From: Planctomycetota bacterium
Lineage (GTDB): Bacteria > Planctomycetota > Phycisphaerae > SM23-33
Length of the DNA: 45,434 nt
Direction of reading: 5' to 3'
NCBI GenBank assembly: GCA_012729725.1
Contig: JAAYCO010000153.1
Coordinates: 1-45,434 of the forward strand
The notes below the pieces were generated by a model, which was given only the letters and a program-made list of their open reading frames with translations, did no database searches and was not told where the DNA came from. The position numbers were made by a program, and so were the translations under genes. Below are positions 5,903-44,480 of the stretch, piece after piece (position 1 is the stretch's first letter; each line of letters starts with the position of its first letter).

Positions 5903-7453
5903 TCAAGCCAGCGTGATGATGCGGCCACGCGGTATGCCGGCGCGGACCGCAACGCGCAAAGCATCATCGATGCCTGCAAAGGCAGCAATAATTATCATGT
6001 CCTCGGCACGTGCAATGTCCTGTATTTTTCTGACAGGCAGGCCGTTAACTACCGCCGCTTCCGCATGGAGCGGCACTATGCCGCTTATCGCTATGCCGGC
6101 AGCAGGGGCCAATCGCTTTATTATCTCGACCTCATCGCCCTGCCCCAGCACGACTACTTCTTGTGCACCTTCTTGAGCTGCGTAGGCAAGTGCAAGCCAG
6201 CACTGACGCGCCCAGTGTCGGTTGTATTGTCGTATCCTTTTGAAGAACCCGATGGTGGCTTGAAGCAGTCTGATCGCGTTGCGAAATGCCCCTTTTCCCC
6301 GCCCCCTGCCGATATAGGCGGCAGCCTGTCGCTTCACAACGAACTGCCGCAGCATTATGCGCCCCAGCGTAGGCAAGATCCGCACCTTGTGCTTGAGACT
6401 GCATCGTCTGCCGAATGGCGAAGGAGGCCGAATGATGCGCATGCTTCTGCCGCCGTCGCTCTCCACGTTCAGCTCGATCCTACGGCAGCCGACCGAGTAC
6501 ACTACCGACCCGCGATGAGCCACTGCCGCCAGTTGTTGTGCCCACTGCGCCGGCGGGGTGAAGCTATCGGGCCCGGTTTCACGTCCCATGCGCAATGCCT
6601 CAATGGCCGGGTGCTCCACAAACGGCATGACTCTGCCGGTTTGCCTGGCGATCAGCGCCCGCTTTGAAACCAGCAAACCATCATGAGGCCCGATGAAATT
6701 CCTATGACCGTTTTCGCCGGGGTGCCAGACATGGTAGAGCCATTCGCGGTCATGCCATCGCTCTCGCTTGCCGGCGTTCACCAGCCGCCATGTCATCTCG
6801 TAGAAGCCGCAGACGTGGCCGAGGTAGTCCATGTGCATGTCGGACCCGCCAATGCCGATCAAACTGCTGCGCAATGCAGCCATGCACGCGCCGTAATTGC
6901 GCATGTGCAGAAGGTCCGAGCGGTCGAGAAGTCCAGTAGGCTTGCCGTTAAGCCAGTTTATGCTGCCAACGCCGGTTATCTCGCGAAGCGGCGGGTTGTT
7001 GAAAGGATAAAACCTGCTGTCGCTGTTGCGAACCTCGTCGAAGTGAAGAACAATATCCCCGTTTTCATCAAAGGCGTTGAGAATTGATTCCACGAACGTG
7101 CGCCGCATCATTGCATCACTGTCCGCGAAGCACACTATTTGCCCCCTGGCAAGCATCAGCCCGGCATTGAGCATCATGTGCTTGTGGTAGCAGAGCCCAG
7201 GCGGCATCTCGAGCACTGCTGCGATGTCAACCGCTCTTGCGGAAGCCGCCGGGCAATCAGAACGCAGCTTGTTCTTCAGGCACTCTGAGAGCTGGTTGTA
7301 GTACTCCACCCAGATGATCTCGTACCTCTCTCGCGGAACGGACTGATTCGCAAGGCAATCCAGCACGTGCGCGCTTTGTCTGCACGACCAGTCCAGCAGT
7401 ACGACGCTGACTTGCGGATTCGGGCCGACACGAGCCTGGAATTCAATCCTCAT
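5903..7453 (-). CDS. Glycosyltransferase family 2 with C-terminal Rossmann-like domain
   Basis: 516 residues. Residues about 14-270 are a GT-A fold: a first strand VSVVLLDW, the DxD-type motif FADSDA at 109-114, and HMRNYGAC and FIGPHDG further on. These are shared almost motif for motif with the GT2 part of the gene at 13256-15286, so the two are paralogues. Residues about 430-516 are a separate small Rossmann-like domain (EVVVLGQGDEVEI, then GLPVRKIQDI and DMIIIAAFAG), like the tails of the two methyltransferases at 9619-12432. The acceptor and donor sugars cannot be read. Its ATG overlaps the previous stop (ATGA, 7450-7453), so it is translationally coupled within the glycan operon. It is the last gene of the locus. 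Confidence 0.85.
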   Translation of the reverse strand: MRIEFQARVGPNPQVSVVLLDWSCRQSAHVLDCLANQSVPRERYEIIWVEYYNQLSECLKNKLRSDCPAASARAVDIAAVLEMPPGLCYHKHMMLNAGLMLARGQIVCFADSDAMMRRTFVESILNAFDENGDIVLHFDEVRNSDSRFYPFNNPPLREITGVGSINWLNGKPTGLLDRSDLLHMRNYGACMAALRSSLIGIGGSDMHMDYLGHVCGFYEMTWRLVNAGKRERWHDREWLYHVWHPGENGHRNFIGPHDGLLVSKRALIARQTGRVMPFVEHPAIEALRMGRETGPDSFTPPAQWAQQLAAVAHRGSVVYSVGCRRIELNVESDGGRSMRIIRPPSPFGRRCSLKHKVRILPTLGRIMLRQFVVKRQAAAYIGRGRGKGAFRNAIRLLQATIGFFKRIRQYNRHWARQCWLALAYAAQEGAQEVVVLGQGDEVEIIKRLAPAAGIAISGIVPLHAEAAVVNGLPVRKIQDIARAEDMIIIAAFAGIDDALRVAVRAGIPRGRIITLA

Positions 7454-10992: not shown

Positions 10993-12432
10993 TTAGCAGT
11001 CCTTGTGCCCGCCCTTGACGCTCACACTGGAGAAATCATTAAGCGACATGATGTGAGAGTTGAATAGTGCGTCAGCGCCCTTTATTGATCGGCGGTGCAG
11101 GAATACCACCGGATACCAGTAGTACCGCCGTATCGGGAAGGTCATAGTCGGCAGCTTCTGCGCCAACAGGCTTTCGATCTGCGGATACTGTTGAGAAACC
11201 AGAACAACCGCCTGCGGATCATATTTGGCGATTTGCTCAATCGTACAGCCGCAGGCATCACCGAGAATATCCGCCTCGTTTATTATCCTGAAGTCAGCCA
11301 GACCCTTTCGCTCAACCATCGGCTCAATAAATGACCATTCCTCGCTTGTCTGGGACTTGATGAACAGCGTCCGCTGCCCAGCCGCCTGAAGCTCGGCTGC
11401 GCATCTGTGGATATGGTTGCGGCCGGCCAGTTCTGAAATTTCCCCAGCAGATGTAAGGTTTATGAACTGGTTGTCGGGGTCCTTGGATTCCTTTGCCGCC
11501 TTCCAATACTTGGAGCCTTTGCGTGCGAAGACCGTCGTCAGGTAGCCGCACGTGTACGCGCACCAGACTGGGTATATTCCTCGGCTGCGCAGTTGTTCGG
11601 GCAGTGGAATGCCATGCAGATCGGTCGAGTCGCAGAAGTCGCGTGTGTCGCCCCACGTGAGCTCGCTGCGGACGTAGAATATGCCGTCGGGGGAAAGGCT
11701 CTTTTCGACCACCCTGATGAGTCTCATGAAATCGGAGCCGCTCAGTTCGCCATGCACGTGTGCTGCAATCATGACGTCGTAGAAACCCGCCGGGATACGA
11801 TCATCCGCCATCCAGGTGGGGACGTGGAAGCGATCTCCAGGCCTGGCGTTGGCGATGTTTGGCATGGTTTTGCGAGCTTTTTCAAAATCGAGCAGGTCGA
11901 AGAACCCCGGTCGATCCGAATATGTGTCGATATAGGACATTATCAGGTTTTGCAGCGTATAGGCAGCCAGCGTAGCGTCTATTGCGGTGTAGATGTTGCC
12001 TGGATGACGCAGATAGGCGCAGGCCCCCTGCCGGCAGCCGCCCGCGCCAAAATCCAGCAGACGGCATGGTTGCTGAGCAAACCTTTCTATGACGCGCCAA
12101 TCAACTATCGTCTCAGCGATGTCGTGCTTAAGATCGACCCTTGCGCCGGTGGTGCAGAGCAGCCTGGCGATTCTGTCATACAAGGCCGTGTAGCGCTTGG
12201 CCCAGTCGAGTTCCCGGTCCGTCAGCGGGCCTATGTCCTCGATGATCTCGTTGAACTTGGCCTGGTGAGTAAGGTGAATGCCAAGAAAGGCCACCAGGTC
12301 TTCAGGAGATTGATATGACTCCCAATCGTCGGGAATGTCTATCCAATATCCGAAGCTGTTTGCGGCCTCTGACGGGCTGAGCAGTTCGCGAGCGGCGCTT
12401 CGAGATGTGCGGAAGACTTCGCTGTCGATCAT
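10993..12432 (-). CDS. SAM-dependent methyltransferase paralogue with Rossmann-like tail
   Basis: 479 residues, with an ATG overlapping the previous stop (ATGA). Same plan as the 9619-10977 gene: a helical N-terminus, motif I RLLDFGAGGCRQGA, TAIDAT as motif II, a conserved HGELSGSDFMRLI stretch, and a C-terminal Rossmann-like domain ending KYDPQAVVLVS. Motif I has GAGGCR where the paralogue has GPGAGR, so SAM binding is likely but altered. The two probably methylate different positions of the same glycan, or one acts as a partner subunit of the other. This is inference from paralogy and adjacency. No signal peptide or membrane segment is seen. Confidence 0.78.
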   Translation of the reverse strand: MIDSEVFRTSRSAARELLSPSEAANSFGYWIDIPDDWESYQSPEDLVAFLGIHLTHQAKFNEIIEDIGPLTDRELDWAKRYTALYDRIARLLCTTGARVDLKHDIAETIVDWRVIERFAQQPCRLLDFGAGGCRQGACAYLRHPGNIYTAIDATLAAYTLQNLIMSYIDTYSDRPGFFDLLDFEKARKTMPNIANARPGDRFHVPTWMADDRIPAGFYDVMIAAHVHGELSGSDFMRLIRVVEKSLSPDGIFYVRSELTWGDTRDFCDSTDLHGIPLPEQLRSRGIYPVWCAYTCGYLTTVFARKGSKYWKAAKESKDPDNQFINLTSAGEISELAGRNHIHRCAAELQAAGQRTLFIKSQTSEEWSFIEPMVERKGLADFRIINEADILGDACGCTIEQIAKYDPQAVVLVSQQYPQIESLLAQKLPTMTFPIRRYYWYPVVFLHRRSIKGADALFNSHIMSLNDFSSVSVKGGHKDC

Positions 12433-13255: not shown

Positions 13256-15286
13256 CTAGCCAAGAACCCTTCGCACCAGCGACCTTGCGGGCTTGAGCAT
13301 CAACACCGCCGCCTTGCGCTTCAGCGCCTTCGCCAGCACCATGTGCTTCACCGCGGCGAGCTTGTGCGAAGCCAGCACCCGCCTGCCATAGTCACCGCGA
13401 TGAAGATACGCGAGCTTGAACTCATGCATGCCGTGCGGAACGGCGAAGTACCGCCCGGCGTACAAGAGGATGTTATGCCCGTGGTAGTTCGAAACCGCCG
13501 TCTGAGGTTGACCCCTGCGGAGGATTTCTTCTCGATCGAAGCAGGTGTAGAAAGCAGTTGGATCATTCCAGGTGGGAACAAGCGCATAACGCGAGCCGGA
13601 ATGCTCTCTGCTTGTGAGCACATAAAACTCGCCCAGCGGCTGAGTTTTGGGTTCAGGTCGCTCCTTCTTGGCAACTTCATACTTGTAGCAGGGATACATG
13701 AAGCCAAGCGAGTCGTGCATGCACCGCAGATGCACGCAGACCAGGTCTTCAAGACATGCCCTCGCGGCGTCCACAACCTGCGGGTCGAAGGCTCGGGACG
13801 ATTCATCCTCGATCGCCCGCCAGACCAGCGAAAACTCCATCCTTGCGCCCGCGCTTCGCAGATTCACAAGCTCATCGAATTTCTGGGCGACGGCCACTAT
13901 GCGAGCTTCAAGCGGAATCTGCTTGCCCCTGGCCGCGCAGCCTTTGCCGTCATATCTCTGGCCTTTGGCGGCGGACACCTTGGCGGCTGTCAAGAGCGGC
14001 TCGCATCGCCACAGGTCCGCCAGTCCTTGCTGGAGCAGGCATTTGGGGCCCTCCGCCGCACACGCGGCTGTGTCTAGACTGCCCATCATCGCGGCAATGT
14101 AGATGCCCTCGACCCTTTCCTGTGGCAGGTTGAGCTGCTTTGCTATGCAAGCGGCATACGCGCCGAGGGCAAATGCGCGAGGATACTCCAGGTTCTCAAC
14201 GCGTATTTCGGTGTCTTCAATGAAGCGTCCAATCATATGGAATTGGTCGTTGTTCCATGCTTTGGAGCCCTCAATGGGCAGGAACCTGCGGTTGGATGGC
14301 ACGGGTGACGTTGGCTTGGGTTCATGGACGTGCCGCTTTGCCGGCCGCTGCTCGACCGCCGGCGGCGCGGATTCGCCAAACATGCTAACGCGAAGCTCGC
14401 GGATGTGCGGATTCTCGCGCAACGGAAGCGTGCGGCGGGAATTGATTATCTCCATCGCTGTCGTCGAAACGCCCTTGCCGTCGTGCGGGCCGGAGAAGTT
14501 GTCTATGCCGTCGTTGCCGGGATGCGGCACATGCCACAGAAGCTCGCGGAAACTCCACCGTTCCCGTTTACCGGACCACTCCATCCGCATTGACATCTCG
14601 TACGGGCCGGCGATGTACCCGGTGTAATCGTCGTGCTCATCCCATCCGCCAACTCTGATTATGTCGTTGCGGCGGGCGCCGAAGCAGGCGCCGTAGTTGC
14701 GCCAGTGAATCAGCGACGGATCAGCAAGCAGGCCGCACCGGAAGTTGCGCATGCCAAGCGGCACGCCGTTGGCAAGGTTGCTGGCGACGGGGATAATCTC
14801 CTTCGGGTTGGGGTACGAGAAAGGATAGAACGAGGCGTCGCCCGTGCGGATTTCCTCTATGTAAAGGATCACGTCGGGATCGTTCTTGAACTCCAGCAGA
14901 ATGGTCTCTACGAAGGTGGTTGACGTGATGGCGTCGCTATCCATGAAGACGACGATTTCGCCGCGGGCGTTTAGCAGGCCCACGTTGTTCATCCAGTGTT
15001 TGCGAAACACCTCGCCCTTGGGCCTGGCCATGACAATCCACGTATCTATCGGCGCTGCCCTGCCGTGCGATTCGTACCTCTGCTGGAGGTCCACCAATTC
15101 CGAGGGCCGGCGATCATAGTACTCCACCCATATGATTTCATACTGATCTCTGGGAGTAACGAGGTGGTTGAGGTACTCAACAGTGTGGAAGCTCTCCCGG
15201 CATCCCCAGTCCAGCAGGACCAGGCTGACCTTCGGATCTGTAATACGCTGGTTTTTGCGAAGCACCTTCATGTCGCCCGAGTCCAT
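13256..15286 (-). CDS. Glycosyltransferase 2 fused to a degenerate HD-GYP domain and a shared C-terminal module
   Basis: 676 residues in three parts. Residues about 15-290 are a GT2 domain (VSLVLLDWGCR, FMDSDA at 114-119, HWRNYGACFGA, FSGPHDG) paralogous to the gene at 5903-7453. A linker rich in Pro and basic residues (about 305-340) leads to residues 370-510, which follow the HD-GYP fold: AACIAKQLNLPQERVEG, then KGQRYDGKGC, IPLEARIVAVAQKFDEL and RAFDPQVVDAA. The catalytic HD pair is gone (MMGSLDT where LLHDIGK is expected) and HHxxxDGxGYP has become KGQRYDGKGC, so it is probably not a c-di-GMP phosphodiesterase. Residues about 595-645 are the small tail shared with four other enzymes of the locus (Asn605, Ala615, His618). 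Transfer of a sugar controlled through the dead domain is inference. The start is one base after the upstream stop. Confidence 0.85.
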   Translation of the reverse strand: MDSGDMKVLRKNQRITDPKVSLVLLDWGCRESFHTVEYLNHLVTPRDQYEIIWVEYYDRRPSELVDLQQRYESHGRAAPIDTWIVMARPKGEVFRKHWMNNVGLLNARGEIVVFMDSDAITSTTFVETILLEFKNDPDVILYIEEIRTGDASFYPFSYPNPKEIIPVASNLANGVPLGMRNFRCGLLADPSLIHWRNYGACFGARRNDIIRVGGWDEHDDYTGYIAGPYEMSMRMEWSGKRERWSFRELLWHVPHPGNDGIDNFSGPHDGKGVSTTAMEIINSRRTLPLRENPHIRELRVSMFGESAPPAVEQRPAKRHVHEPKPTSPVPSNRRFLPIEGSKAWNNDQFHMIGRFIEDTEIRVENLEYPRAFALGAYAACIAKQLNLPQERVEGIYIAAMMGSLDTAACAAEGPKCLLQQGLADLWRCEPLLTAAKVSAAKGQRYDGKGCAARGKQIPLEARIVAVAQKFDELVNLRSAGARMEFSLVWRAIEDESSRAFDPQVVDAARACLEDLVCVHLRCMHDSLGFMYPCYKYEVAKKERPEPKTQPLGEFYVLTSREHSGSRYALVPTWNDPTAFYTCFDREEILRRGQPQTAVSNYHGHNILLYAGRYFAVPHGMHEFKLAYLHRGDYGRRVLASHKLAAVKHMVLAKALKRKAAVLMLKPARSLVRRVLG

Positions 15287-15287
15287 G

Positions 15288-17822
15288 CTAGACCGCCTGC
15301 AACGTCAGTTGTCGTATGCCGCGGACAACCTGCATTATGTTGTCGCCCTTGACGCACACGCCGGGCGGATAGCCGTCGCCGGCGACCTTGTCCACGTCCA
15401 GCGGGTACCCGTGGCGGATCGCGCAGAATCCCGAGCGGATCCTCAAGATATTGAAAGAGTCAAACTCCTTGATCATCACGGTGAGGCCCGGCGGCAATTC
15501 GTGGGATAGCTTCGTAATGAGGTACTGTCCCGTGTCGTCGCTGAGGGTTTGCCTTGGCGCGATTGTTGTCGCGTCGCATCGCCTTTTTGGCGCAAATGCG
15601 AGATGAACGCCTGCAACGCCGCCGCGGGCTATGCGTCTTGCATACTGCCCGTATTTGTGCGGTCGTCGGATTGCGCCTGACATTCGTTGCCAGAAGCCGG
15701 GCCTTCCCGGCGGCGGGGGAACCGGCGACCCGTGCGGCGGCAGACAGTAGTACTCCCCCGCCAACCTGATCATTGCCGAGCCGGCGTCGTCTAGGTTTGT
15801 GCATGATGGCGCTGCGTTGGTCTCTGCAACCTCTTTTTGCAGCTTGGTGGACGCGCCCGCCCCGAAGTCATACTCAGCCTTCTGAAGCGCAGCCAGAATC
15901 CTGGCGCATCTTTCATTGCGAACGTTGTGGTCGATAAAGGGTTCTTCGCTGTACCACACATCCGGCGGCAGCGAATACATGTGACGCTCCATCAACCGCT
16001 CCCGAGGCTCGGTGAAGTGAATGCGGTATTTCTCCGGTTCGTTCCAGTAGATGCTTCCCCGCAGGAGTTGCAGCGGGTTGATGTTCGCAAGCCTGCCTAT
16101 ATGCTTGCGATTCTCCAGCATCAGGTCGATGCAATCGCGCAAGTCATCGTCCGTCTCGCCGGGACAACCGACTACCGCATTGACTTCCACGTATATGCCC
16201 GCCGAATGGCAGTCCTTCAGGTTCCGGCGGACCATATCTATGCTGTAGCCCTTGTTCTGCGTCTTGAGCAGCCGCTGCGACCAGCCGTCCACGCCGAACC
16301 TCAGCGACACGAAACCAGCCTTCTTCAGAAGATCAAAGAACTGCGGGGTGTTGCGCTTGTCGATGCGAAGCTGGCCGCCGAATATCACCGGCAGATCGCG
16401 CGCGATGACCTGGCGGCATATCTCCTCAACAAGGGCGGGGTCGCCGTTGAGATCGCTTTCGCTGAAGACGAACTGGTAGCACCCCTGTTCAACCATGTGT
16501 TCAATCTCATCGACAAAGTTCTCCGGCGAGCGCGTCCGCCACGGCAGGGCCTCTCCGCAGAATCGGCATTTGCCCCAGTGACATCCCCTGCTGGCGATCA
16601 CCGGCGTGAGCTGATAGTGGTGGTAGTTTCGGTAGACGTCCAGCGGGAACCAGTCGTAATCCGGCATGCCCAGCGCGTCCATATCCTGCGGCGCCCTTGC
16701 CGGCCTGAACGGTTTCACCGGGTCGTCATCAGCTCCCAGTATTCCCTCAATATTCCTGGGACGTTTGCCGGCCTTGAGCTGCTCGACAAGCTCAACGAGG
16801 CTCTCGTCGGCCTCGCCTATTGCCATGTAATCGCACTCCGGAAAAATGCGCCTGCCAACGTCGGCATGACGACAACTGTATCCTCCGACAATAACTATCA
16901 GGTTTGGCAGACGCTTTCTGACCCGCTGGACCACCTCACGAGCGAACCGCAGGTTGCATTGCTGAATGGACAGCCCAAGCATCGCGGGTTTGGCGGCCAG
17001 GAGGGCGTTAACTATCTCGTTGATGTCGCTTTCAAAGTAGGCGACCATTTCGTCGCCGTCCCACAACGACATGTCCTCTGCCGACCAGGGATCATCAGGA
17101 AACGGCGTTCCGCGTGGCGACATGACAGGCCCGCCCACGTCAAGTAATCGATGGCAGTGGAATCTGTGATAGAGAATGATGTCGCAGTCTATTGTCTGGA
17201 AATGCAGCGACGTCTTCTTGAGGGCCTTGTGCACGTATCCCAGGCCGTTGGGCATGAGCGAGAGATTGCGCGAGGGCAGGTCCATCAGCACCATGTCGAG
17301 GCCGGGCCGGATGCGAATCTCCGGTATGTTCAGCGGGTAGATCGACGCGGTGTCCTGGATGAATGCCCGTCGTGGAATGCTGCGCCAGTCGAGGCGTTCC
17401 AGTATGCTCCAGTCTTCAACATCCGCCGCTGAGCGAATTCTTCGCGCGATGCTTTGCCGCGGATGCGTTCTGGTTTCGCAGATGAACACGGTGGCCACAT
17501 TGGTCAACAGGTCGTCAATCGCCGCAACGGCAAGATCTCCAGCCTTCTGGACTTCATGCGGCGCCCGCAGGACGCATCGCACCTTCTGCTTCAATTCCGG
17601 CGCGTGCTTCAACATGTACTCGATCATCACGTCAGGCCCGGCCAATGCGATGTGGCCGCTCTTGCTTTCGAGGCGCTGCGCAACCGTTTTCAGGCAGGCC
17701 AGCTCATCGGGACTGTCGTCGTATCGGAACAGCCGGTAGGGACTGAAGACCATCTTTGTGGCCCGTGTTCTTCCGGCTCTTCCATATAATGCGTATTCGA
17801 TAGTAGCAGTAGCTGCGTCCAC
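15288..17822 (-). CDS. B12-binding-domain radical SAM enzyme 2, multidomain
   Basis: 844 residues from a GTG at 17822 that has GAGGAG six bases upstream; this beats the internal ATG at 17753. Residues about 55-130 are a Rossmann-like domain of the type seen at the ends of three neighbours. Residues about 175-355 are a cobalamin-binding-like domain (AMLGLSIQQCN, LIVIVGGYSC). The radical SAM cluster motif is SRGCHWGKCRFCG with Cys 414, 419 and 422, a CX4CX2C spacing seen in some B12 radical SAM subfamilies. Residues about 505-560 contain FGVDGWSQ and VGCPGETDD. The C-terminus (about 780-840) is the shared small module (Asn791, Ala801, His804). The likely job is radical chemistry on a glycan building block; the substrate cannot be read. 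Confidence 0.85.
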   Translation of the reverse strand: MDAATATIEYALYGRAGRTRATKMVFSPYRLFRYDDSPDELACLKTVAQRLESKSGHIALAGPDVMIEYMLKHAPELKQKVRCVLRAPHEVQKAGDLAVAAIDDLLTNVATVFICETRTHPRQSIARRIRSAADVEDWSILERLDWRSIPRRAFIQDTASIYPLNIPEIRIRPGLDMVLMDLPSRNLSLMPNGLGYVHKALKKTSLHFQTIDCDIILYHRFHCHRLLDVGGPVMSPRGTPFPDDPWSAEDMSLWDGDEMVAYFESDINEIVNALLAAKPAMLGLSIQQCNLRFAREVVQRVRKRLPNLIVIVGGYSCRHADVGRRIFPECDYMAIGEADESLVELVEQLKAGKRPRNIEGILGADDDPVKPFRPARAPQDMDALGMPDYDWFPLDVYRNYHHYQLTPVIASRGCHWGKCRFCGEALPWRTRSPENFVDEIEHMVEQGCYQFVFSESDLNGDPALVEEICRQVIARDLPVIFGGQLRIDKRNTPQFFDLLKKAGFVSLRFGVDGWSQRLLKTQNKGYSIDMVRRNLKDCHSAGIYVEVNAVVGCPGETDDDLRDCIDLMLENRKHIGRLANINPLQLLRGSIYWNEPEKYRIHFTEPRERLMERHMYSLPPDVWYSEEPFIDHNVRNERCARILAALQKAEYDFGAGASTKLQKEVAETNAAPSCTNLDDAGSAMIRLAGEYYCLPPHGSPVPPPPGRPGFWQRMSGAIRRPHKYGQYARRIARGGVAGVHLAFAPKRRCDATTIAPRQTLSDDTGQYLITKLSHELPPGLTVMIKEFDSFNILRIRSGFCAIRHGYPLDVDKVAGDGYPPGVCVKGDNIMQVVRGIRQLTLQAV

Positions 17823-17831
17823 CTTTTCTCC

Positions 17832-18788
17832 TCAGGCACTCGCTGTGGAACCGGCTCGATGAGCGGCCTGTGGTTCTTTCCAGATTCCCATTACTGCCTC
17901 GGCGATTGAGGCTGCACATAAACCCGCGTTTCGGCGGAACTCGTCCTTGTGCGGACTACCCAGCACGAAGCCATCGCCCGTGTTCAAGGCGATCAGGGCC
18001 GGATGTGACGGGCGCGAGGCAAAATGGTTTGATACTTGTGCAGCCAGCCCGCCGTGAGCGAGATGTTCCTCGACGACAACGATCGTCTGGACCCGCTGGG
18101 CTATCGCGTCCAGCGTTTGACAGTCAAGAGGTTTTATGGTGTGATATTGATACCATGATGGAACAACGCCCCGGCGGCGCAGTTCGTCCAGCGCCGCCTG
18201 CACTTCGGATGCAATCTCACCTGTTGAAAGCACGGCCACTCCGCGCCCATGCTGCATCAGCCTGGCCTTGCCCAGTACAGGCTCGATGATCGAGCGGCAG
18301 GCGGGCTCTTTGCCCCTGCCGATTCTGAAGTACCCGCACCGCCCTGCCGAGTGCATCTGGGGTAGAAGGCTCGCCGCCTCCTGGGGGTCGCCTGGCGCAA
18401 CAACCGTCATGCCTGGCAGGGCGCACAGCAGCGAGATGTCCTCGCCCGCGTGGTGAGTTACGCCGCTTGAGCTGTACGCGTACCCGCCGCCGGCGCCGAC
18501 AACTATCACAGGCAGCTGCGCGTACGCCACTGCCAGCTTGAGTTGTTCGAAGCACCGGCACGTTGCGAAAGACGCGATTGAATATGTCACCGGGCGCATG
18601 CCCACCGACGCCATGCCGGCCGCCGCCATGATCAACTGAGCCTCGGCTACGCCGACGTTCACGTAACGCGGGCCAAACTCCCTGGCGAATTCATCGAATA
18701 CCCCGAAGCCCAAATCGCCTGTCAGCAACACGATTCGATTGTCCTCGCGCGCCAACCTGGTGAGAGCTTGAATGAAGGCCAGCTTCAT
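17832..18788 (-). CDS. Transketolase, C-terminal subunit
   Basis: I choose the ATG at 18788, which overlaps the stop of the N-terminal subunit (ATGA); a TTG lies two codons earlier. The 318 residues cover the pyrimidine-binding and C-terminal domains of transketolase: RIVLLTGDLGFG, YVNVGVAEAQLIMAAAGMA with the Glu that activates thiamine diphosphate, SSGVTHHAGEDISLL, then GRGVAVLSTGEIA and VVVEEHLAHGGLA in the last domain. Such split pairs occur apart from the central-metabolism enzyme and often make unusual sugars. Together with its partner it should move a two-carbon ketol unit. In this locus it may build or extend a branched or long-chain sugar precursor (inference). Confidence 0.9.
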   Translation of the reverse strand: MKLAFIQALTRLAREDNRIVLLTGDLGFGVFDEFAREFGPRYVNVGVAEAQLIMAAAGMASVGMRPVTYSIASFATCRCFEQLKLAVAYAQLPVIVVGAGGGYAYSSSGVTHHAGEDISLLCALPGMTVVAPGDPQEAASLLPQMHSAGRCGYFRIGRGKEPACRSIIEPVLGKARLMQHGRGVAVLSTGEIASEVQAALDELRRRGVVPSWYQYHTIKPLDCQTLDAIAQRVQTIVVVEEHLAHGGLAAQVSNHFASRPSHPALIALNTGDGFVLGSPHKDEFRRNAGLCAASIAEAVMGIWKEPQAAHRAGSTASA

Positions 18789-19663
18789 GCACAAGCCCTC
18801 CGGGCCAGGTGCCAGGGAACCTCGCCAAGCTCATCGAGCGCGTTCTGCAGGTCTTCGTCGCTGGGAACGCGATAGTGCCACAGCGTCTTGTCCTGCATGA
18901 AGCTAACGCCGGCGCCCTTGAGAGTTTTAAGCACTATCGCAGAGGGCTTGTCCGGTTCCAGAGGCAGCGACCAGAGAGCATCCACCACCTCCGGCATATC
19001 GTTGCCGTTGATTGTGCGGGCGGCCCACCCGAAGGCGCGGAACTTCTGCTCGATCGACGTGTGGCCCATGATCTCGTCGCTTCTGCCAACTGCCTGGATG
19101 CCGTTGTAGTCGACAAGCGCCACAAGGTTGCCAAGCCGTTTGGCAGCGGCGAACATCGCAGCCTCCCACACGCTGCCCTCGTTGCACTCGCCGTCGCTCA
19201 TCAGCACGACGGCGCGCGGATAAACCGACCTTAGCGAAAGCCCGTACAGCATTCCTGCCGCGACGCCCAGGCCGTACCCCAGGCTGCCGCTGGACATTTC
19301 AAGCAATTCCAGTGCATGCTTGCACGGATGGTCTGACAGTGGCTTGCCATAGCATGCATAGTCCGCCAGCCACTGCGCCGGTATGAAACCGCGCTGCGCC
19401 AGCACGGCATAAAGGGCGGTGCATGCATGGCCTTTGCTGAGGATGAATCTGTCTCGGTCATCGGCGCCGCGGTTTGATTCGTTGACGTTAAGCCAGCCGC
19501 CGTATAAGGCAACGATGGCGTCCACGCAGCTCAGGGCCGAACCAACGTGCCCAACCCTGCCGTCGTGCGCAAGCTGAACGCAGGTGGCTCTTGCCTGCCT
19601 CGCCTGTCGGATCAATCGAGGCATATCAACAACGACGGTGCTATTGGTTTGAGGATAGCTCAT
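18785..19663 (-). CDS. Transketolase, N-terminal subunit
   Basis: 292 residues, ATG start that overlaps the upstream methyltransferase end by 23 bases. The thiamine-diphosphate fold is clear: GHVGSALSCVDAIVALYGG, DRFILSKGHACTALYAVLA, SGSLGYGLGVAAGML, then the cofactor motif SDGECNEGSVWEAAMF and LVALVDYNGIQAVG. These bind the diphosphate through Mg2+. The length is normal for the split form. It forms the active enzyme with the next gene, to which it is coupled by ATGA. Its place between a methyltransferase and a radical SAM gene ties it to glycan precursor synthesis and not to the pentose phosphate pathway. Confidence 0.9.
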   Translation of the reverse strand: MSYPQTNSTVVVDMPRLIRQARQARATCVQLAHDGRVGHVGSALSCVDAIVALYGGWLNVNESNRGADDRDRFILSKGHACTALYAVLAQRGFIPAQWLADYACYGKPLSDHPCKHALELLEMSSGSLGYGLGVAAGMLYGLSLRSVYPRAVVLMSDGECNEGSVWEAAMFAAAKRLGNLVALVDYNGIQAVGRSDEIMGHTSIEQKFRAFGWAARTINGNDMPEVVDALWSLPLEPDKPSAIVLKTLKGAGVSFMQDKTLWHYRVPSDEDLQNALDELGEVPWHLARRACA

Positions 19664-20525
19664 CCACCCACTTCCTGGCCTGTTCGACGGATGGCGACGA
19701 AAACAGCATATTCGTGCGGCTCAGTTCGGCGATTTTCTCGGCGTTTAGCGATGCGATGTCCATCTCGCCCGCGGCATGCGCCACCGCAATCACGCTTCCG
19801 CGGTAGCGGATCAAATTATAGGCGCGATACTCCTCCATCAGTACCGGAGGCGCAATTCCAGAGTGCGGTAATTCCGGAAATTTCAGCGCGGTTGGTTTCC
19901 ATTCGCCAGGCACGTGGCCGGCTCGAACGCTCCACACGGCGCAGTTGATCGAAACATCCTCAAATGCTTCTGAAACCGCCAGCACCACGCCGCAGTGTAT
20001 GTTGCCGTGGTAGTCAAGATCCCTGCCTGCCTGAAGCATCTCCGAATCAAAATCCTCAGCCCATCCTTCGCAATCGTGGCCGCAAAGTATCCCGCCCGGC
20101 TTGACCAGCGGAGCATAGTTGGCGATGTCCCGTTTGACCTGCTCGTATCTGTGATCGGCATCGATGAAGACCATGTCGAACCTGCGCTGCCGCAAAACCT
20201 GGGCGACAACATCACTGGAGGCTCGAATGGGCACGGCGGTAGCGGCCAGGCCCCTCTTCTTCATCCTTCGCCAGAAAACATGGAACACATCCTGGTGCAT
20301 CGCCGTCCGCTCGAGGTCGGTGCCGATGTTGCCCTTCCACCAGTCAATGCAAAACAGCTTGCCGTTGTTGCGCTTGGCGACATTTCCCAGCACGACGGCC
20401 GAGTCGCCGCACCAGCTTCCGACCTCAAGAAGACGGCAGCCTTCGTGCGCCACCGACTCGGCCAGGCGGCGTAGAACAAGCCGCTGCTGGGCTACAAGTT
20501 GATCAATTCGCATGTCCAGGCTCAT
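19641..20525 (-). CDS. Class I SAM methyltransferase with shared C-terminal module
   Basis: I use the ATG at 20525, which overlaps the preceding stop (ATGA) and starts the family-like part; the open frame extends to 20612 with an unlikely Arg-rich leader. 294 residues. Residues about 30-150 are a methyltransferase-24-type fold: RLLEVGSWCGDS (motif I), LFCIDWWKG, FDMVFIDADHRYEQV and PGGILCGHDC. Residues about 224-288 are the small module also found on the neighbouring radical SAM and sulfotransferase proteins (Asn237, Ala247, His250, Asp256). The hydroxyl or carbon methylated is unknown. The module between catalytic domain and C-terminus is about 65 residues and has no recognisable catalytic motif. 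Confidence 0.85.
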   Translation of the reverse strand: MSLDMRIDQLVAQQRLVLRRLAESVAHEGCRLLEVGSWCGDSAVVLGNVAKRNNGKLFCIDWWKGNIGTDLERTAMHQDVFHVFWRRMKKRGLAATAVPIRASSDVVAQVLRQRRFDMVFIDADHRYEQVKRDIANYAPLVKPGGILCGHDCEGWAEDFDSEMLQAGRDLDYHGNIHCGVVLAVSEAFEDVSINCAVWSVRAGHVPGEWKPTALKFPELPHSGIAPPVLMEEYRAYNLIRYRGSVIAVAHAAGEMDIASLNAEKIAELSRTNMLFSSPSVEQARKWVDELSSNQ

Positions 20526-22420
20526 TGCGGAGCTCCTGCGCCTGGAGTTGCTGGTATGCGCCCTCGGGCTTGTTCCAGGCTTTCGGCAACGATCATCGTG
20601 CGGTCCGCGCAATACCGTGAGCGCAGTTCATCGCTGATCTGCGTCAGGTCCATCGGTCCCAGCGCATGGGCAACGGCAAAGTACTTGTCCGCCCAGCGCA
20701 GAACGTTGTAGCCTCTGCATTCCTCAAGCAGGTGAGGCACAGGTATGGACTGGCCTGCATAACGCCGGGCGTCAAACGGGTGATAAATGGAGTACGGCGC
20801 GCACGTTGAGTACTCCTTCGTTTCATCGTGTACATGCGTCACCAGTTCCGCGGCTTCCATGATGAACCTGCAGTGGCATAGCGGGCAGTAGTGAATCACC
20901 GGCTGGGGCCGGATGCCGGATCTGATGCGGAACGGATACACGCGCGTCACTTCGCGCTGGCAATGCGGGCAGAGAAGGTTGATCTCGCAGAGTTTTCGCC
21001 TGATCTCAAACGGCGCATCGACATCGTATGGCTCATCTTCAAGCACTCTGCATGACAGCACGGCTGCACGCTTGGCGCAGAAGATGTCGCTGACGATCGG
21101 CCTGGTCAGGCCGTAGAACTCCTCGTCGGACATGGATGTCATATTCAAGCCGCTCTTGGCGTGCGCCACAGTCTTGTAGTACTGCTCGCGGTCGGGTATC
21201 AGGCCTCGATCAACGCTCTGCTCGAATATTTCGCTGCCTGGATACGGGGTGATGTAGAAGAAGTAGACCGTCAGGTCGCGGCAGTGCTTGTTGTAGAAGT
21301 CGACGGTGCGTCGAATAGTTTCGGGCGTTTCGGCGGGATCGCCAAAGATGAAGTTGGCGTGCATGCCGATGCCCGCCTTGCGGGTAAGGTTTATGGCCCG
21401 GAGTATGTGATCGGCGGTTATGCGTTTCTTCATGCTGCGAAGGATCTTGTCGCTGGCGCTCTCCAGTCCATATCCGATGAACACGCAGCCGCTTTCTTTC
21501 ATCTCCGCAAGCAGATCCTCATTCACGCCGTCGACACGCAGGTAGCAGCCCCAGTCGAAATCGGCCCCCAGGCTGCGCTTGAGCCGCTTCACGCCGCGTG
21601 CGAATTGCAGCGCCTTGTCAACCTGTATCGAGAACACTTCATCATGCACGTACAACACGTTGTACCGGTACATGCCGTAGAAGTGGGCGGCCTCCGCCAG
21701 GACGTTGTCTATGGACCGCGTGCGATAGTCTGCGCCCTTGCGATGACAGCAGAATGTGCATTGAAACGGGCAGGATCTCCCCACGCTTATGGGCATGATC
21801 CTTGGCCGATTTCGGGTGTGCGCCAGGTAGTCGTTGGTCTTGTTGTTGAGCGAAAGATGTCGCTCGAAATCGAACGGCGTGTAGTCAGGAAACGGCAGGG
21901 AATCGAGATCCTGAACGTAATGCTTGGGGTTGACTACCATCCTGCCGTCGCGCCGGTAAACGAGGCTGGGCGCGCTGTCCAGGCTGCCGCCGGAATCAAG
22001 CAGGTCGCAGAGCCTGACGATCGCAAGCTCGCCCTCGCCGACAATTCCAAAGTCCGGCTGGAGGTTGCCGAATATGAATTCCGTGTCATACGTGATTATG
22101 CCGCCCCCGAGCACAACAGGCGTGCGAGGCGCCAGCCGCCTGGCGAATCTGATTGTGTCGCGAATGAAGAAGTAGTCGCCCGCCAGGCCGCCCGTGCCGA
22201 TCAGGCCCGGTTTGTGTTCCTCGATCGCCTTTCGCATGGCCTGTTCAAGCGCCAACGGGGCTCCGCCGTGGCACCAGATGGAGTTGATGTCCACGCCAAC
22301 CACTTCGTGCCCAGCTTGCCTGAGTGATGCGGCCAGGTACGGCATTGCCTGCGCGAACGTGTTGACGTCCGCCGCCGGATCGGGATAGTTGTTCTTGGTG
22401 AGGACCAACAGAACCTTCAT
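20522..22420 (-). CDS. B12-binding-domain radical SAM enzyme 3 with zinc ribbon and shared C-terminal module
   Basis: 632 residues; the ATG overlaps the sulfotransferase stop (ATGA) and GGGGAG lies seven bases upstream. Residues 1-145 are a cobalamin-binding-like domain (VLLVLTKNNYPDP, VVGVDINSIW, VVLGGGIITYD). The cluster motif is SCPFQCTFCC with Cys 217, 221 and 224. Barrel turns FIGYGLES and NFIFGDPAETP follow. Residues about 480-520 hold two CxxC pairs (484/487 and 512/515), a likely zinc ribbon. Residues about 560-622 are the module shared with four other enzymes (Asn572, Ala582, His585, Asp591). Catalysis of C-methylation or a rearrangement on a glycan or lipid-linked intermediate is the general expectation. 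Confidence 0.87.
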   Translation of the reverse strand: MKVLLVLTKNNYPDPAADVNTFAQAMPYLAASLRQAGHEVVGVDINSIWCHGGAPLALEQAMRKAIEEHKPGLIGTGGLAGDYFFIRDTIRFARRLAPRTPVVLGGGIITYDTEFIFGNLQPDFGIVGEGELAIVRLCDLLDSGGSLDSAPSLVYRRDGRMVVNPKHYVQDLDSLPFPDYTPFDFERHLSLNNKTNDYLAHTRNRPRIMPISVGRSCPFQCTFCCHRKGADYRTRSIDNVLAEAAHFYGMYRYNVLYVHDEVFSIQVDKALQFARGVKRLKRSLGADFDWGCYLRVDGVNEDLLAEMKESGCVFIGYGLESASDKILRSMKKRITADHILRAINLTRKAGIGMHANFIFGDPAETPETIRRTVDFYNKHCRDLTVYFFYITPYPGSEIFEQSVDRGLIPDREQYYKTVAHAKSGLNMTSMSDEEFYGLTRPIVSDIFCAKRAAVLSCRVLEDEPYDVDAPFEIRRKLCEINLLCPHCQREVTRVYPFRIRSGIRPQPVIHYCPLCHCRFIMEAAELVTHVHDETKEYSTCAPYSIYHPFDARRYAGQSIPVPHLLEECRGYNVLRWADKYFAVAHALGPMDLTQISDELRSRYCADRTMIVAESLEQARGRIPATPGAGAPQ

Positions 22421-23586
22421 GCACTTCTCCCCACCTGGTCCATGCAGGCATATCGCGCCTGCTGATGGATCAATGCCTTCAGTTCACGGGGCGAGTCGGC
22501 AACCAGATACTGCCCCAGCGTCAGCAGCCTGCGAAGTTCGCCGGCGGGGGCTGATTGCAGATCCACCGCGCCGCCGCACGAGATGGCGTGAGCCCTGCCG
22601 CGGTGCATGACGATGTTAAAGCCAAGATACTGTTGCTCAATCAGCCGCGGCATGTGCGAGTGCTTGAACTGCCGATCAAGCAGCGCCGTAAGGTCGTGAT
22701 CATCCTGCTCTGAGGGCCGCCCCGCGGCCGGCTCAACCTGCCAGCCCCATTTTGCCGGCACGCCCAGCGAGAAATGCCGCCTCAGCAAGTCGTCCAGATA
22801 ACTGACCGGCTTTGTGAGCGACCTGCGCAGGAAGTCGCCGATATCCGATGGCATCTCCATCTGATCGCCGGTCAGGACGCGCTGGTGCAGCGGAAAGAAC
22901 GTGAAATCCACATCCGTCCGCACGTCCAGGTGACGAAACACATCCGTCAGAACATCCTGGGGAGACTCGACGGATCGCTCGGTGAAATCTATGCAGAAAC
23001 TGCTGGGACGGAAGCATTGCAGCCACCGCTCCAGCACGGCGGCGTAGTCGCTGAACGACAGGTAGTAGTCCATCCAGCCGCTTTCTGTAAGGTGGGCAAG
23101 ACTGATCGCTTCTTCGCCCCCGCAGGACGAAAACGCGCCGAGCCGATAGCGGTAATCGTGACGAATGTGCGCCCACGCGCGAGCCTGGGGCTCTCTCATC
23201 AGGAATACCAGCCTGCATTCCCCCAGAAGTCGTCGAATCGTGCGGATGGCGAAGGGCGGCAATATTGCGTAGCTTGCGCCGACGTCGCCCTTGCGCTTGT
23301 GCGGCAGGGCTGCGAATTCTCCGAGGTAGGCATTCACGTCGCGCCAGCGCCAGAATGTGCAGAAGTAATCCTGCTCGTCTTGAGGGATGAAGATTTCATC
23401 ATGCCTGACCAGGTTTTCACGCAGCCACGGCCCGCCCGTTTGGGGCGCCGATATCACCAGGAAGTCGGGCTCGCACTGTCGAAGCGATCGGCTGACCTTT
23501 CCGATGCGGCTCTCGTAATGCCGCCATGGCCCGCGCCGGCCTTTGCCGCATGTCAGTCTGCCGACTATTGAGTGAATCAATGACAT
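22417..23586 (-). CDS. Sulfotransferase with shared C-terminal module
   Basis: 389 residues from the ATG at 23586, which has GGAGG four bases upstream and overlaps the Wzt-like gene by ten bases; a longer open frame to 23859 is antisense-like leader. The PAPS-binding loop is FLVISAPQTGGPWLRENL (5' phosphosulfate site) and the 3' phosphate site is RLVFLMREPQARAWAH, both near the usual spacing. The family moves sulfate from PAPS to a hydroxyl of a carbohydrate. Its place beside the exporter suggests sulfation of the finished or nearly finished glycan. Residues about 311-374 carry the small module shared with four enzymes of the locus (Asn324, Ala334, Asp342). No membrane segment is seen. Confidence 0.85.
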   Translation of the reverse strand: MSLIHSIVGRLTCGKGRRGPWRHYESRIGKVSRSLRQCEPDFLVISAPQTGGPWLRENLVRHDEIFIPQDEQDYFCTFWRWRDVNAYLGEFAALPHKRKGDVGASYAILPPFAIRTIRRLLGECRLVFLMREPQARAWAHIRHDYRYRLGAFSSCGGEEAISLAHLTESGWMDYYLSFSDYAAVLERWLQCFRPSSFCIDFTERSVESPQDVLTDVFRHLDVRTDVDFTFFPLHQRVLTGDQMEMPSDIGDFLRRSLTKPVSYLDDLLRRHFSLGVPAKWGWQVEPAAGRPSEQDDHDLTALLDRQFKHSHMPRLIEQQYLGFNIVMHRGRAHAISCGGAVDLQSAPAGELRRLLTLGQYLVADSPRELKALIHQQARYACMDQVGRSA

Positions 23587-24965
23587 GCTTCCTCCAGAAG
23601 GGCCGATTGATCCATCTGCGAGAGCGTTATCTCCAGGTCGGCGACGCCGGAACACACGCGGTCGCTCTGCACGACTAGATGGATCATGTCGCTTCGGCAT
23701 TGAAGCAGGTGAAGTTCGTCGCCGTGGTCGGCTACGCCGCAACTGAAGAAGTAGTCGCCCGCCTTCAGCGCGAGGCGCATCGTCACCTTGAATACCCTGG
23801 TTTCCCCGGCGCGGATCGGCTGGATCGTCAATCCCTGCAGGTTGGTGCTGCTGCCGCACACGATCATGCCTTCGAGGGTTTGAAGAGTCAGCCCAAACGT
23901 TGGAAAGGCCACGTCGCGCTCGTACGCAGCCTTGAAATATATCGATATTACCTGATGTGCATTGACGGTCGCCGGGTCCTGTCGCGGGCCGTCGATCAGC
24001 AGATAATCGACGATGGCCGCCCCGCCCTCGCCGAATTTGTATTCATTCTTGTTGTAGGTCCGCCGGGTCGGACAGACATCCGCGGTTCCATCGCCTTCAA
24101 GCAGTTCCTGCAGTTGGTTTGCGTCAGTGGAGGGTTGTGGCGCCTCAGGCTGGGGCCTGCTTGCGGGCCTGCTGCCGCTGCCCACCGGCAGGCCGAAGAG
24201 CAGCTCGTTGTAGGCCTCGCCTACCGCCTTGGCATTGCCGTCCATAATCAGCCTGCCGCTTTCCAGCAGCACGGCCCTGTCGCAGTGGCGAGCGATGATG
24301 TCGCAACTGTGCGTGACCAGAAGGATGGTCTTGCCCGCCTTCTGGAAGTCCAGAAACTTCTGGTAGCACTTTCGCTGGAACTTGGCGTCTCCGACGGCAA
24401 GGGCCTCGTCAACAACCAGTATGTCCGGCTGGACGTTAATCGCCGTCGCGAACGCCAGTCGCACGAACATGCCCGATGAGTAGGTCTTGACCGGCTGGTT
24501 GAAAAATGGCCCGATGTCGGCAAAGGCTTCTATCTGTTCGAGCCTGCCGGTAATGTCGCCCCCTTCGAGTCCCGACAGGCGGCACAGGAACACGGCGTTG
24601 TCTCTTCCGGTGAACTCGGGGTTGAAACCCGCCCCAAGCTCAAGCAAGGCGGCGATTCTTCCCCTTGTGTTCACCTGCCCGCGGGTGGGCCGGAGTATGG
24701 CGCATATGATCTGAAGCAGCGTGCTCTTGCCCGAACCGTTCCTGCCGATGATTCCAAGCGTCTGCCCTGCCGGGATCGTCAGGTTGATGTCCTGGAGAGC
24801 CCAGAATTCGCGCGGCGTCCTGGGCCGGCCGGGGCGTATGGCCGCCACGAGTCTTTCAACAGGCGACGAGAACAGCTTGAACCGCTTGCTGACGCCCGAA
24901 ACCACAACTGCCGGCTCATCGCACCGACTCGCTTGACAACCTGCATGTCCCGGAAGTGAAGCCAT
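23577..24965 (-). CDS. Polysaccharide ABC exporter ATP-binding protein, Wzt type
   Basis: 462 residues from the ATG at 24965, whose A is also the last base of the permease stop (TGATG); GAGG lies seven bases upstream. Walker A is GRNGSGKSTLL (74-84), the signature YSSGMFVRLAFA (162-173), Walker B DILVVDEALAVGD (181-193) and the switch His in VTHS. After a Pro-rich linker (about 262-290), residues about 310-450 form a beta-sandwich like the Wzt carbohydrate-binding domain, which in O-antigen exporters recognises the chain terminus before transport. So the exported glycan is probably capped and recognised. Partner of the permease gene directly upstream. Confidence 0.92.
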   Translation of the reverse strand: MASLPGHAGCQASRCDEPAVVVSGVSKRFKLFSSPVERLVAAIRPGRPRTPREFWALQDINLTIPAGQTLGIIGRNGSGKSTLLQIICAILRPTRGQVNTRGRIAALLELGAGFNPEFTGRDNAVFLCRLSGLEGGDITGRLEQIEAFADIGPFFNQPVKTYSSGMFVRLAFATAINVQPDILVVDEALAVGDAKFQRKCYQKFLDFQKAGKTILLVTHSCDIIARHCDRAVLLESGRLIMDGNAKAVGEAYNELLFGLPVGSGSRPASRPQPEAPQPSTDANQLQELLEGDGTADVCPTRRTYNKNEYKFGEGGAAIVDYLLIDGPRQDPATVNAHQVISIYFKAAYERDVAFPTFGLTLQTLEGMIVCGSSTNLQGLTIQPIRAGETRVFKVTMRLALKAGDYFFSCGVADHGDELHLLQCRSDMIHLVVQSDRVCSGVADLEITLSQMDQSALLEEACH

Positions 24966-25765
24966 CACAGAACCTCGGCGAATTCGCCTTTCAGGCGGCG
25001 AAACAACACTCCTCCAACAACGAGGACAAGCAAGACGAACACCCAGAAGAACGCCGCCTCGCGCCAGTCCGACCATGGCGGCGAATGGTGCAGAAACGAC
25101 CGGCGATAGCCCTCGACAATATGGAACATGGGGTTGAGCCTTATAAGCCAGGCCCATCTGCCTTCTATCATTTTTGCGTCCCACACGATCGGCGTAAGCC
25201 AGAACCACATGCTCAGCGCCACCGTCACCGCCTGCCCAACATCCCGGCAGAACACGTTCAGGGCCGACACCAGCCAGCCAAGCCCGATGCACAGCAGACT
25301 CATCGCGCCCAGAAAGTAGATGAACTGCAGGTTGTGCAGCCCAAGGCCCTGGCCGTTAACAACCATGGCCGTCAGCAGCATGACAAGCATCACCGCGTGG
25401 CCCATCAGGCTGGAAAGGAAACACACAACGGGAAGTATCTCCGTTGGAAACCGCGTTTTCTTGACCAGGTGCGGATTGCTCATTATGGAGGTCGTGCTGG
25501 CGCCAATGCTTTCGGCGAACGCGGTCCACGGAGCAAACCCGCTCAGGAACACCAGTATGAACGGCATGTTGCCGGCAGTGCTTACCTTGAGACCCTTGGT
25601 GAAGACAAACCAATATATAAGGACTATCAGCAGCGGATGGACGAGGCTCCATACAAGCCCCGCCAATGTGCCGGCGTAACGTGTCTGCACATCCCTCAGC
25701 GCCATCGCCGCCACCAGCGATCGGTGGCGATAAAGCCGAATGGCGAAATTAAGCCCTGATCGCAT
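24965..25765 (-). CDS. Polysaccharide ABC exporter permease, Wzm / ABC-2 type
   Basis: I choose the ATG at 25765, which has AGAGAGG about ten bases upstream; a GTG at 25810 is possible but has no ribosome site. 266 residues with about six hydrophobic segments (LVWSLVHPLLIVLIYWFVF, FILVFLSGFAPWTAF, later LVMLLTAMVV, FLGAMSLLCIGLGWLV, ALSMWFWLTPIVW, FFWVFVLLVLVVGGVLF). The stretch RYAGTLAGLVWSLVHP at the first segment and NPMFHIVEGYR near the end are the usual Wzm marks. It forms the membrane channel with the next gene. It is the first gene of the glycan locus, so the promoter should lie in 25766-25875; I see no clear one. Confidence 0.9.
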   Translation of the reverse strand: MRSGLNFAIRLYRHRSLVAAMALRDVQTRYAGTLAGLVWSLVHPLLIVLIYWFVFTKGLKVSTAGNMPFILVFLSGFAPWTAFAESIGASTTSIMSNPHLVKKTRFPTEILPVVCFLSSLMGHAVMLVMLLTAMVVNGQGLGLHNLQFIYFLGAMSLLCIGLGWLVSALNVFCRDVGQAVTVALSMWFWLTPIVWDAKMIEGRWAWLIRLNPMFHIVEGYRRSFLHHSPPWSDWREAAFFWVFVLLVLVVGGVLFRRLKGEFAEVL

Positions 25766-32905: not shown

Positions 32906-33071
32906 GGCAGTCTACGTTGCGACAGCTTTCCTGTCGCTGCATGAAGTGAACGCCGGAAGTGCATTCACGGCCGCGTCGATATCCGAGCGGCACAGCCAGC
33001 TTTCGCCAGATCGGCGGCTTGGACCCTTCAAGCGTAATGCGGATTTCGTAGATGCTGCGTTTCTTTGCCAT
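32853..33071 (-). pseudogene. pRiA4b ORF-3-like protein, N-terminal fragment
   Basis: The first about 27 residues (IYEIRITLEGSKPPIWRK plus LAVP) match the start of the plasmid pRiA4b ORF-3 family, normally around 180 residues or longer. After that the frame runs into unrelated sequence and stops at 72 residues. The ATG at 33071 overlaps the end of the RhuM-family gene. It is read as a truncated relic of an island gene. Confidence 0.65.
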
Positions 33072-34102: not shown

Positions 34103-34149
34103 TCGTGTCCTCTGCCTGCCGCTATGCAGCAGGGATAAATGGCATACCG

Positions 34150-34458
34150 TTACCGCTTCTTTGGCCGCCGCGACCGCTTGACACGCTGCTTCCGGTTGGC
34201 GTCGACCGGCAATGGGATCGTGAAGTCCAAGTCCTCGCTGAGCCGGTAGAACCCGGTGTGGACCTTGGCCAGGCAGGTGCCGCCCTTGAACACGAGCCGA
34301 CCGCCGCCGCGTTCGGACAGATAGGCCAGCAGGACGGTGCAGAAGTAGTCCTTCTCGATCAGGCGCGGGTTGAAGCCCGTCTTCGAGGCCGTGAAGTTGA
34401 CGGCTTCACGAAACAGCGGCACGTCTTCATGGAGCGCCAGGCCGGTTGATTCAGCCAT
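34150..34458 (-). pseudogene. AbiEii-like nucleotidyltransferase toxin, truncated
   Basis: Only 102 residues where the family has about 250-300. The nucleotidyltransferase motif VFKGGTCLAKVHTGFYRLSE, with the acidic DLDF after it, is present near 56-79. The frame then ends in a basic tail (RKQRVKRSRRPKKR), so the rest of the catalytic and C-terminal region is missing. Its start overlaps the antitoxin gene end by eight bases, the usual AbiE arrangement. Probably an inactive relic; 47 bases separate it from the RhuM-family gene. Confidence 0.8.
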
Positions 34459-44219: not shown

Positions 44220-44480
44220 CCCGCCATGTCTGCCAGGCATTTTAGAAGGATGCCGTATTCACTTGTAATGTGCAAATGCAACATTCATGCCTGTCCGCGG
44301 CTGCCGCTCATTATTCCGGCATCGCTTTCGCCACGAAAGCCAGACAAGCGAAGACCTGGTTTCCGCCCGGCCGGCTCAACCCGGCCCGACTTGAGGAACG
44401 CTGAAACCTCCTCCGATCAACCATGTTACATGCCCGACGTATCCAACCTGCATGCCGCCCTGGCCTGAGGGCCGCCCGGC
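44220..44480. other. Intergenic region, no gene recognised
   Basis: Between the AraC-type gene and the repeat array. I see no supported coding region, terminator or RNA gene. Confidence 0.4.

Follow-up and report, generated by a model that had tools for sequence, protein, structure and literature searches.

A small module shared by five enzymes of a planctomycetal glycan locus recurs on glycan-assembly enzymes of at least six bacterial phyla

Carbohydrate-binding modules (CBMs), LysM and cohesin/dockerin are small, mobile, non-catalytic units, often in tandem, that hold enzymes on a polymer or a scaffold. As a kind, mobile modules of this sort on glycan enzymes are already known; the known CBM, LysM and cohesin/dockerin units serve mostly extracellular polymer degradation and not mainly cytosolic polymer assembly. 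In glycan assembly, WbdD of Escherichia coli O9a uses its non-catalytic C-terminal region to recruit the polymerase WbdA (PMC3482155, PMC11231755). Here we analyse a stretch of 45,434 nucleotides from a Planctomycetota bacterium (contig JAAYCO010000153.1; the whole stretch is referred to as the window), in which five enzymes of one glycan locus carry copies of a module of about 56–66 residues. An earlier note on this DNA had aligned the five C-termini without gaps over 20 positions. The locus occupies 5.9–25.8 kb on the minus strand and comprises two family 2 glycosyltransferases (GT2), three B12-radical SAM enzymes, several methyltransferases, two transketolase halves, a sulfotransferase and a Wzm/Wzt exporter. 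The module-bearing enzymes and their module copies are given below, with E-values of the copies against a profile built from copies outside the window.

13256..15286, minus strand: GT2 glycosyltransferase fused to a degenerate HD domain (GT2/HD), module at the C-terminus; Pfam HD_5 3.2e-8, Glycos_transf_2 3.2e-4
13328..13513, minus strand: module copy of GT2/HD (Asn605); E 6.3e-7
15288..17822, minus strand: B12-binding radical SAM enzyme 2 (rSAM2), C-terminal module; Pfam Radical_SAM 1.9e-17, B12-binding 7.4e-10
15306..15488, minus strand: module copy of rSAM2 (Asn791); E 1.5e-5, AlphaFold2 pLDDT 86.4
19641..20612, minus strand: Methyltransf_24 methyltransferase, C-terminal module, start codon uncertain; Pfam Methyltransf_24 4.4e-23
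19656..19853, minus strand: module copy of the methyltransferase (Asn266); E 2.4e-11
20522..22420, minus strand: B12-binding radical SAM enzyme 3 (rSAM3), C-terminal module; Pfam Radical_SAM 4.8e-20, B12-binding 1.5e-13
20546..20743, minus strand: module copy of rSAM3 (Asn572); E 6.4e-14, AlphaFold2 pLDDT 93.9, pTM 0.79
22417..23859, minus strand: sulfotransferase, C-terminal module, start codon uncertain; 40% identity over 347 amino acids to L041:6156-7436
22459..22656, minus strand: module copy of the sulfotransferase (Asn415); E 6.3e-11

The motif described in the earlier note was present in each of the five C-termini. Its Asn lies exactly at the positions given for GT2/HD, rSAM2 and rSAM3, while Asn237 of the methyltransferase and Asn324 of the sulfotransferase are identical to Asn266 and Asn415, the starts chosen there lying 29 and 91 codons further in; the numbers differ because of the start-codon choice only. 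The distance of ten between Asn and Ala holds in all five tails, and an Asp at +18/+19 was confirmed in four, the GT2/HD tail having a Lys there (motif HEFKL). The similarity over 20 positions is real, but its extent was underestimated, as the module covers 56–66 residues and has a second conserved half, A/G-x-S/T-x-x-x-V-K-x-x-I. The consensus reads PxLxEEGYxGFNIVxYxxxFYAIPQxLGxxDLxx...(I/V)xA(D/E)SxEEVKxxI. Among 62 copies the Asn is kept in 59, the position of the Ala is occupied by Gly or Ala in 61, and the position described as His/Cys is mostly Gln or His. In the numbering of the profile of copies from outside the window, the near-invariant residues are Asn13, Gln/His26 and Asp32, with aromatic residues at 17 and 22. 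The catalytic folds, taken to be five and unrelated, number four because rSAM2 and rSAM3 are homologous (23% identity over 317 amino acids, E 1e-18).

A profile of the five tails found copies in the glycan loci of other phyla, clustered and with high significance, beyond chance matches. In other genomes of the family the matches included G019, with four copies on one contig and the best E (7.9e-13), as well as G004, G012 and G014. Conversely, the profile of copies from outside the window, run against 875 frames, matched only the five window proteins, the next value being 0.51, and with twenty shuffled sets and reversed frames as controls the best value was only 0.18. When each tail was searched with a profile of the other four, rSAM3 (1e-8), the methyltransferase (4e-10) and GT2/HD (3e-4) were recovered, and the sulfotransferase (1.7) and rSAM2 (0.47) were not significant; because the four-tail profiles miss these two, the wider family was needed for them. 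When named genomes were scanned with a probe matching the EGY[RK]G[FY]N stretch, 16 loci were obtained, from Phycisphaerae, Sedimentisphaerales, Deltaproteobacteria, Nitrospinota, Nitrospirae, Omnitrophota, Spirulina and Verrucomicrobia. This probe held artificial consensus variants, and a profile built from natural sequences confirmed its matches; an iterated profile counted 85 copies in the 16 loci. Within the window, no hidden module was found in GT2a, MTa, MTb, TylF, the transketolase halves or Wzt, and a possible decayed second copy near residue 685 of rSAM2 was not significant (−2.4 bits). Nitrospirota orthologues of rSAM2 have extra copies.

Structure prediction was performed on two of the five window tails. 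AlphaFold2 on the 62-copy alignment, with rSAM3 first, gave the rSAM3 tail a beta-beta-beta-alpha-beta-alpha topology, with strands at residues 4–9, 12–17 and 20–25, a helix at 38–46, a strand at 50–53 and a helix at 56–62 of the 66 residues. The most divergent tail, that of rSAM2, was modelled from its own sequence and three orthologues and gave the same topology (strands 5–10, 13–18 and 21–26, a short helix, strand 46–49, helix 52–65). The module is assigned one predicted fold, as the two tails agree in topology although modelled from separate alignments; structure prediction had been suggested as a check in the earlier note. We concluded that the five tails are copies of one module of about 56–66 residues.

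The module is not named in Pfam or NCBIfam (2025/2026 versions), whether whole proteins or the 62 single copies were searched, and no match was obtained among PDB sequences or among plasmid and phage records. Foldseek with both tail models gave E-values of 0.7 or worse, a result with which a shared CBM fold remains compatible. VIA-align gave no credible match (best Z 3.5), and neither did viral folds; the best VIA-align rows, the methane monooxygenase inhibitor subunit (Z 3.5) and MutL C-terminal domains (Z 3.2), were rejected for their low Z and for having no common biology. The missing structural match does not prove that the fold is new. No published description of such a module was found in the literature searched, subscription papers being outside its reach. 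The module is a well-defined domain family, unnamed in the libraries searched. Both this family and its deployment in glycan assembly, on enzymes as well as the exporter, are new as far as these searches reach, UniProt and InterPro being outside their scope.

The catalogue of module-bearing proteins holds 105 copies in 59 hosts, with 1 to 11 copies per protein. The description as a C-terminal module applies to 44 of the 59; in 11 hosts the module is internal and in 4 it lies near the N-terminus. Single copies occur in 35 hosts and tandem arrays of 2 to 11 in the other 24, including one host with eleven. In this GT2 protein of a Nitrospinota genome (L070:12395-15691), the stop codon falls inside the eleventh module. 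According to Pfam, the hosts are GT2, GT4-like and CDP-glycerol glycerophosphotransferase-like proteins, Methyltransf_24 and Methyltransf_11/_23 methyltransferases, Sulfotransfer_1/3 and Acyl_transf_3 proteins, B12-radical SAM and SPASM-radical SAM enzymes, a metallophosphoesterase with an F5/8 type C domain, a TPR protein and Wzt. Some hosts additionally carry F5/8 type C discoidin domains, which are often sugar-binding.

That the tail was added repeatedly, as the earlier note proposed, is borne out by homologous enzymes that carry 0, 1, 2, 3 or 11 copies in differing places. In their catalytic parts, the window enzymes share about 43–60% identity with relatives in other phyla that have differing module numbers: 1, 2 or 11 on GT2 relatives, 1 or 3 on methyltransferase relatives, and 1, 2 or 3 on rSAM2 relatives. 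In G004 an rSAM3-like part and a GT2 part are fused and bear two modules. The second GT2 of the window has none, and its near relatives (51–53% identity) have 2 and 11. The module is also present on rSAM2 orthologues with 43–55% identity from Deltaproteobacteria, Nitrospirota and Phycisphaerae. To judge from sequence comparison, rSAM2, a B12-radical SAM enzyme plus an N-terminal part without family match, appears to be a conserved core of module loci. The rSAM2 proteins of Nitrospirota and Deltaproteobacteria (L097:9128-12607, L099:11259-14741, L100:5751-9230, L060:10249-12825, L065:10513-13173 and L066:2687-5281) are 43–45% identical to that of the window (15288-17822), and module proteins are found nearby in every locus seen.

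Likeness among copies was highest between tandem copies of one protein. After removal of near-duplicate genomes, copies on the same kind of host across genomes were more alike than under shuffled labels (39 of 2000 shuffles reach the observed value), and copies on different enzymes of one genome were more alike than copies on different enzymes of different genomes (8 of 2000). As both likenesses exceed those of shuffled labels, copies are inherited together with their hosts and, inside a genome, are also exchanged or under shared selection. A per-column search for genome-specific residues returned just one position passing z 2.5, which is insufficient to point to a binding site.

The module occurs in Planctomycetota, Deltaproteobacteria, Nitrospirota, Nitrospinota, Omnitrophota, Cyanobacteria and Verrucomicrobia, and spans at least six bacterial phyla. 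Within a genome the copies cluster in a single locus as a rule; over 16 genomes they are confined to one to three contigs, usually one. In phylum samples, whose counts are lower bounds, the module is rare and patchy: it was found in at least 2 of 294 Planctomycetota (the window's own genome counted), at least 4 of 247 genomes from the phylum of one Deltaproteobacteria genome, at least 6 of 193 Omnitrophota, and at least 5 of 198 from the phylum of the Nitrospirae genome, all of these five multi-copy and on one contig each. Of 17 module genomes, 10 encode Wzt_C, the glycan-binding domain of the exporter ATPase Wzt. Nine of these have it either in a module protein or no further than about 2 kb from a module on one contig; in G004 it lies on a contig other than the module's. 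In Wzt of two Deltaproteobacteria contigs and one Nitrospirae contig (L060:7176-8759, L065:7203-8792 and L061:6337-7902) the order is ABC_tran, module, Wzt_C, and the same order in two cut proteins (L062, L066) brings the number of genomes to five. The Wzt of the window is 58–60% identical to the three complete orthologues in the ATPase part and 35% in Wzt_C, with no module between.

Most hosts appear cytosolic. Hydropathy and signal peptides, from which topologies were derived, suggest another placement for several: L057:4370-6262 starts with a lipoprotein-like signal peptide ahead of the module, three membrane proteins of GT-C appearance in L073 carry it after the last membrane helix, an Acyl_transf_3 protein (L097:16855-18303) has a further membrane helix directly before it, and L068 encodes short membrane-anchored double modules. 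Some hosts are thus likely extracytoplasmic, and the module would lie on both sides of the membrane.

Our tentative first choice is that the module is a small, independently folding, non-catalytic recognition unit that would bind a shared ligand, most likely the polysaccharide. The module would have been duplicated and moved between glycan-assembly enzymes, and its ligand would be the growing or finished, possibly lipid-linked, polysaccharide of the locus. Acting like a CBM, it could keep polymerases, the exporter and tailoring enzymes (methyl-, sulfo-, acyl- and radical SAM) on one shared chain, and tandem copies may raise local concentration or avidity. The earlier note's proposal of docking to a common carrier, glycan or scaffold would fit these observations. 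We rank a glycan first because of the two-sided compartments, the proximity of Wzt_C and F5/8 type C domains, the use of tandem copies and the list of hosts; a ligand present on both membrane sides best explains hosts on both. The hosts act on sugars or polymers with unrelated catalytic folds, and in the Wzt of five genomes the module directly precedes the glycan-binding Wzt_C. The likeness of copies within a genome is also what a genome-specific shared ligand would predict. Several points weigh against glycan recognition. Neither of the two models searched has a fold match to a CBM or any other solved structure, and several conserved strand positions are aliphatic and would equally fit a protein–protein surface. 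The likeness within genomes could come from recombination between copies, the extracytoplasmic placement is a prediction from hydropathy and a signal peptide, and 7 of the 17 module genomes are without Wzt_C.

Protein docking, in which the copies bind each other or a common scaffold protein to form a multi-enzyme assembly and export complex, is a serious contender that we consider less probable than glycan recognition. It would account for the gathering of unrelated catalytic parts, exporter included, in one locus and for the variable copy number; free-standing multi-module proteins (L068, L076) are possible scaffolds, and recruitment by a non-catalytic C-terminal region has a precedent in ABC-exporter glycan assembly (PMC3482155, PMC11231755). 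However, one common scaffold cannot serve all hosts if these are, as is likely, extracytoplasmic as well as cytosolic, and the lipoprotein and membrane proteins with modules make a purely cytosolic scaffold less likely. No single partner gene was found alongside the module everywhere, in a search that was not exhaustive, and Wzt and GT2a of the window lack the module although their relatives carry it. A purely structural or regulatory role, with no ligand in common, is unlikely; the module would then stabilise, space or self-oligomerise each enzyme as a convenient add-on in a recombining locus. Copy number and position do vary freely among homologous enzymes, and copies of one genome are alike, as from recombination, but the Asn kept in 59 of 62 copies and several conserved aromatic and polar residues are retained whatever the phylum or the fold of the host, and confinement to glycan loci would stay unexplained. 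Chance resemblance among unrelated C-termini, to which the mere two invariant columns of about 60 across the five tails and the two tails missed by the four-tail profiles might point, is ruled out for practical purposes by the profile of copies from other genomes, which matches all five tails and nothing else while shuffled and reversed controls fail, and by the same predicted topology from separate alignments.

Further genes of the locus and the remainder of the window were also inspected. Two relevant proteins without a module are

23577..25292, minus strand: Wzt polysaccharide-exporter ATPase; Wzt_C 4.5e-23
5903..7453, minus strand: GT2 paralogue, 45% identical to the GT2 part of GT2/HD

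The sulfotransferase has no significant Pfam match of its own, and its relative L041:6156-7436 matches Sulfotransfer_3 at 3.7e-11. At residues about 360–510 of the GT2/HD fusion lies an HD domain in which the HD and GYP motifs are apparently missing; it is therefore probably inactive as a phosphodiesterase. A split transketolase, with N and C halves, lies inside the locus (17832-19663, minus strand) and suggests a branched or ketol-transferred sugar. The adjacent methyltransferase-like proteins at 9619-10977 and 10993-12432 (minus strand) are full-length paralogues (28% identity over 461 amino acids, E 5e-59) and share another C-terminal region, distinct from the module (35% over 51 amino acids). 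Outside the locus, 33071-35245 (minus strand) holds what we take to resemble an AbiEi/AbiEii-type pair with a short AbiEii frame (102 amino acids); a RhuM-like gene comes next. Three direct repeats of 151 nucleotides, spaced by 167–168 nucleotides, are found at 44477-44962, the second 77% and the third 66% identical to the first.

Among described systems, WbdD of E. coli O9a and Klebsiella pneumoniae O3 is similar in that the non-catalytic C-terminus of a tailoring methyltransferase brings in another enzyme of the locus (PMC3482155, PMC11231755). It differs in that this region is a coiled coil plus membrane helix in one enzyme, whereas the module is a predicted alpha/beta unit on many; the module is predicted to be compact, at 66 residues, and a long coiled coil followed by a membrane helix and a polymerase site, as in WbdD, was not encountered. 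Wzt_C (PF14524) is likewise a non-catalytic domain of ABC-exporter glycan assembly and directly follows the module in the same protein in five genomes. However, it has 143 profile positions compared to about 60 for the module, and occurs only on the exporter ATPase while the module occurs on many enzymes. None of the 62 copies matched PF14524 at E up to 0.1, and the two are separate neighbouring segments of Wzt. The Pfam CBMs, dockerin (PF00404), LysM (PF01476) and cohesin also matched none of the 62 copies at E up to 0.1. With these units the module shares its small size, its mobility, its lack of catalytic function, its presence on many catalytic parts and its frequent tandem arrangement. 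What keeps the enzymes of ABC-exporter pathways together on one chain is understood for just a few enterobacterial O-antigens, and a module that the exporter ATPase shares with radical SAM enzymes and with glycosyl-, methyl-, sulfo- and acyltransferases offers a handle on this question in uncultured lineages. New members of such loci could be predicted from the tail alone and, should its ligand be identified, the module could serve as a ready-made tag to bring enzymes together. It is possible, though we hold this with less assurance than the recognition role itself, that one mobile repeat directs polymerases, the exporter and tailoring enzymes to a common growing chain or complex on both membrane sides, with copy number as the tuning element. 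If this is true, the module represents a widespread, unnamed counterpart of the cellulosome and CBM logic on the side of glycan assembly.

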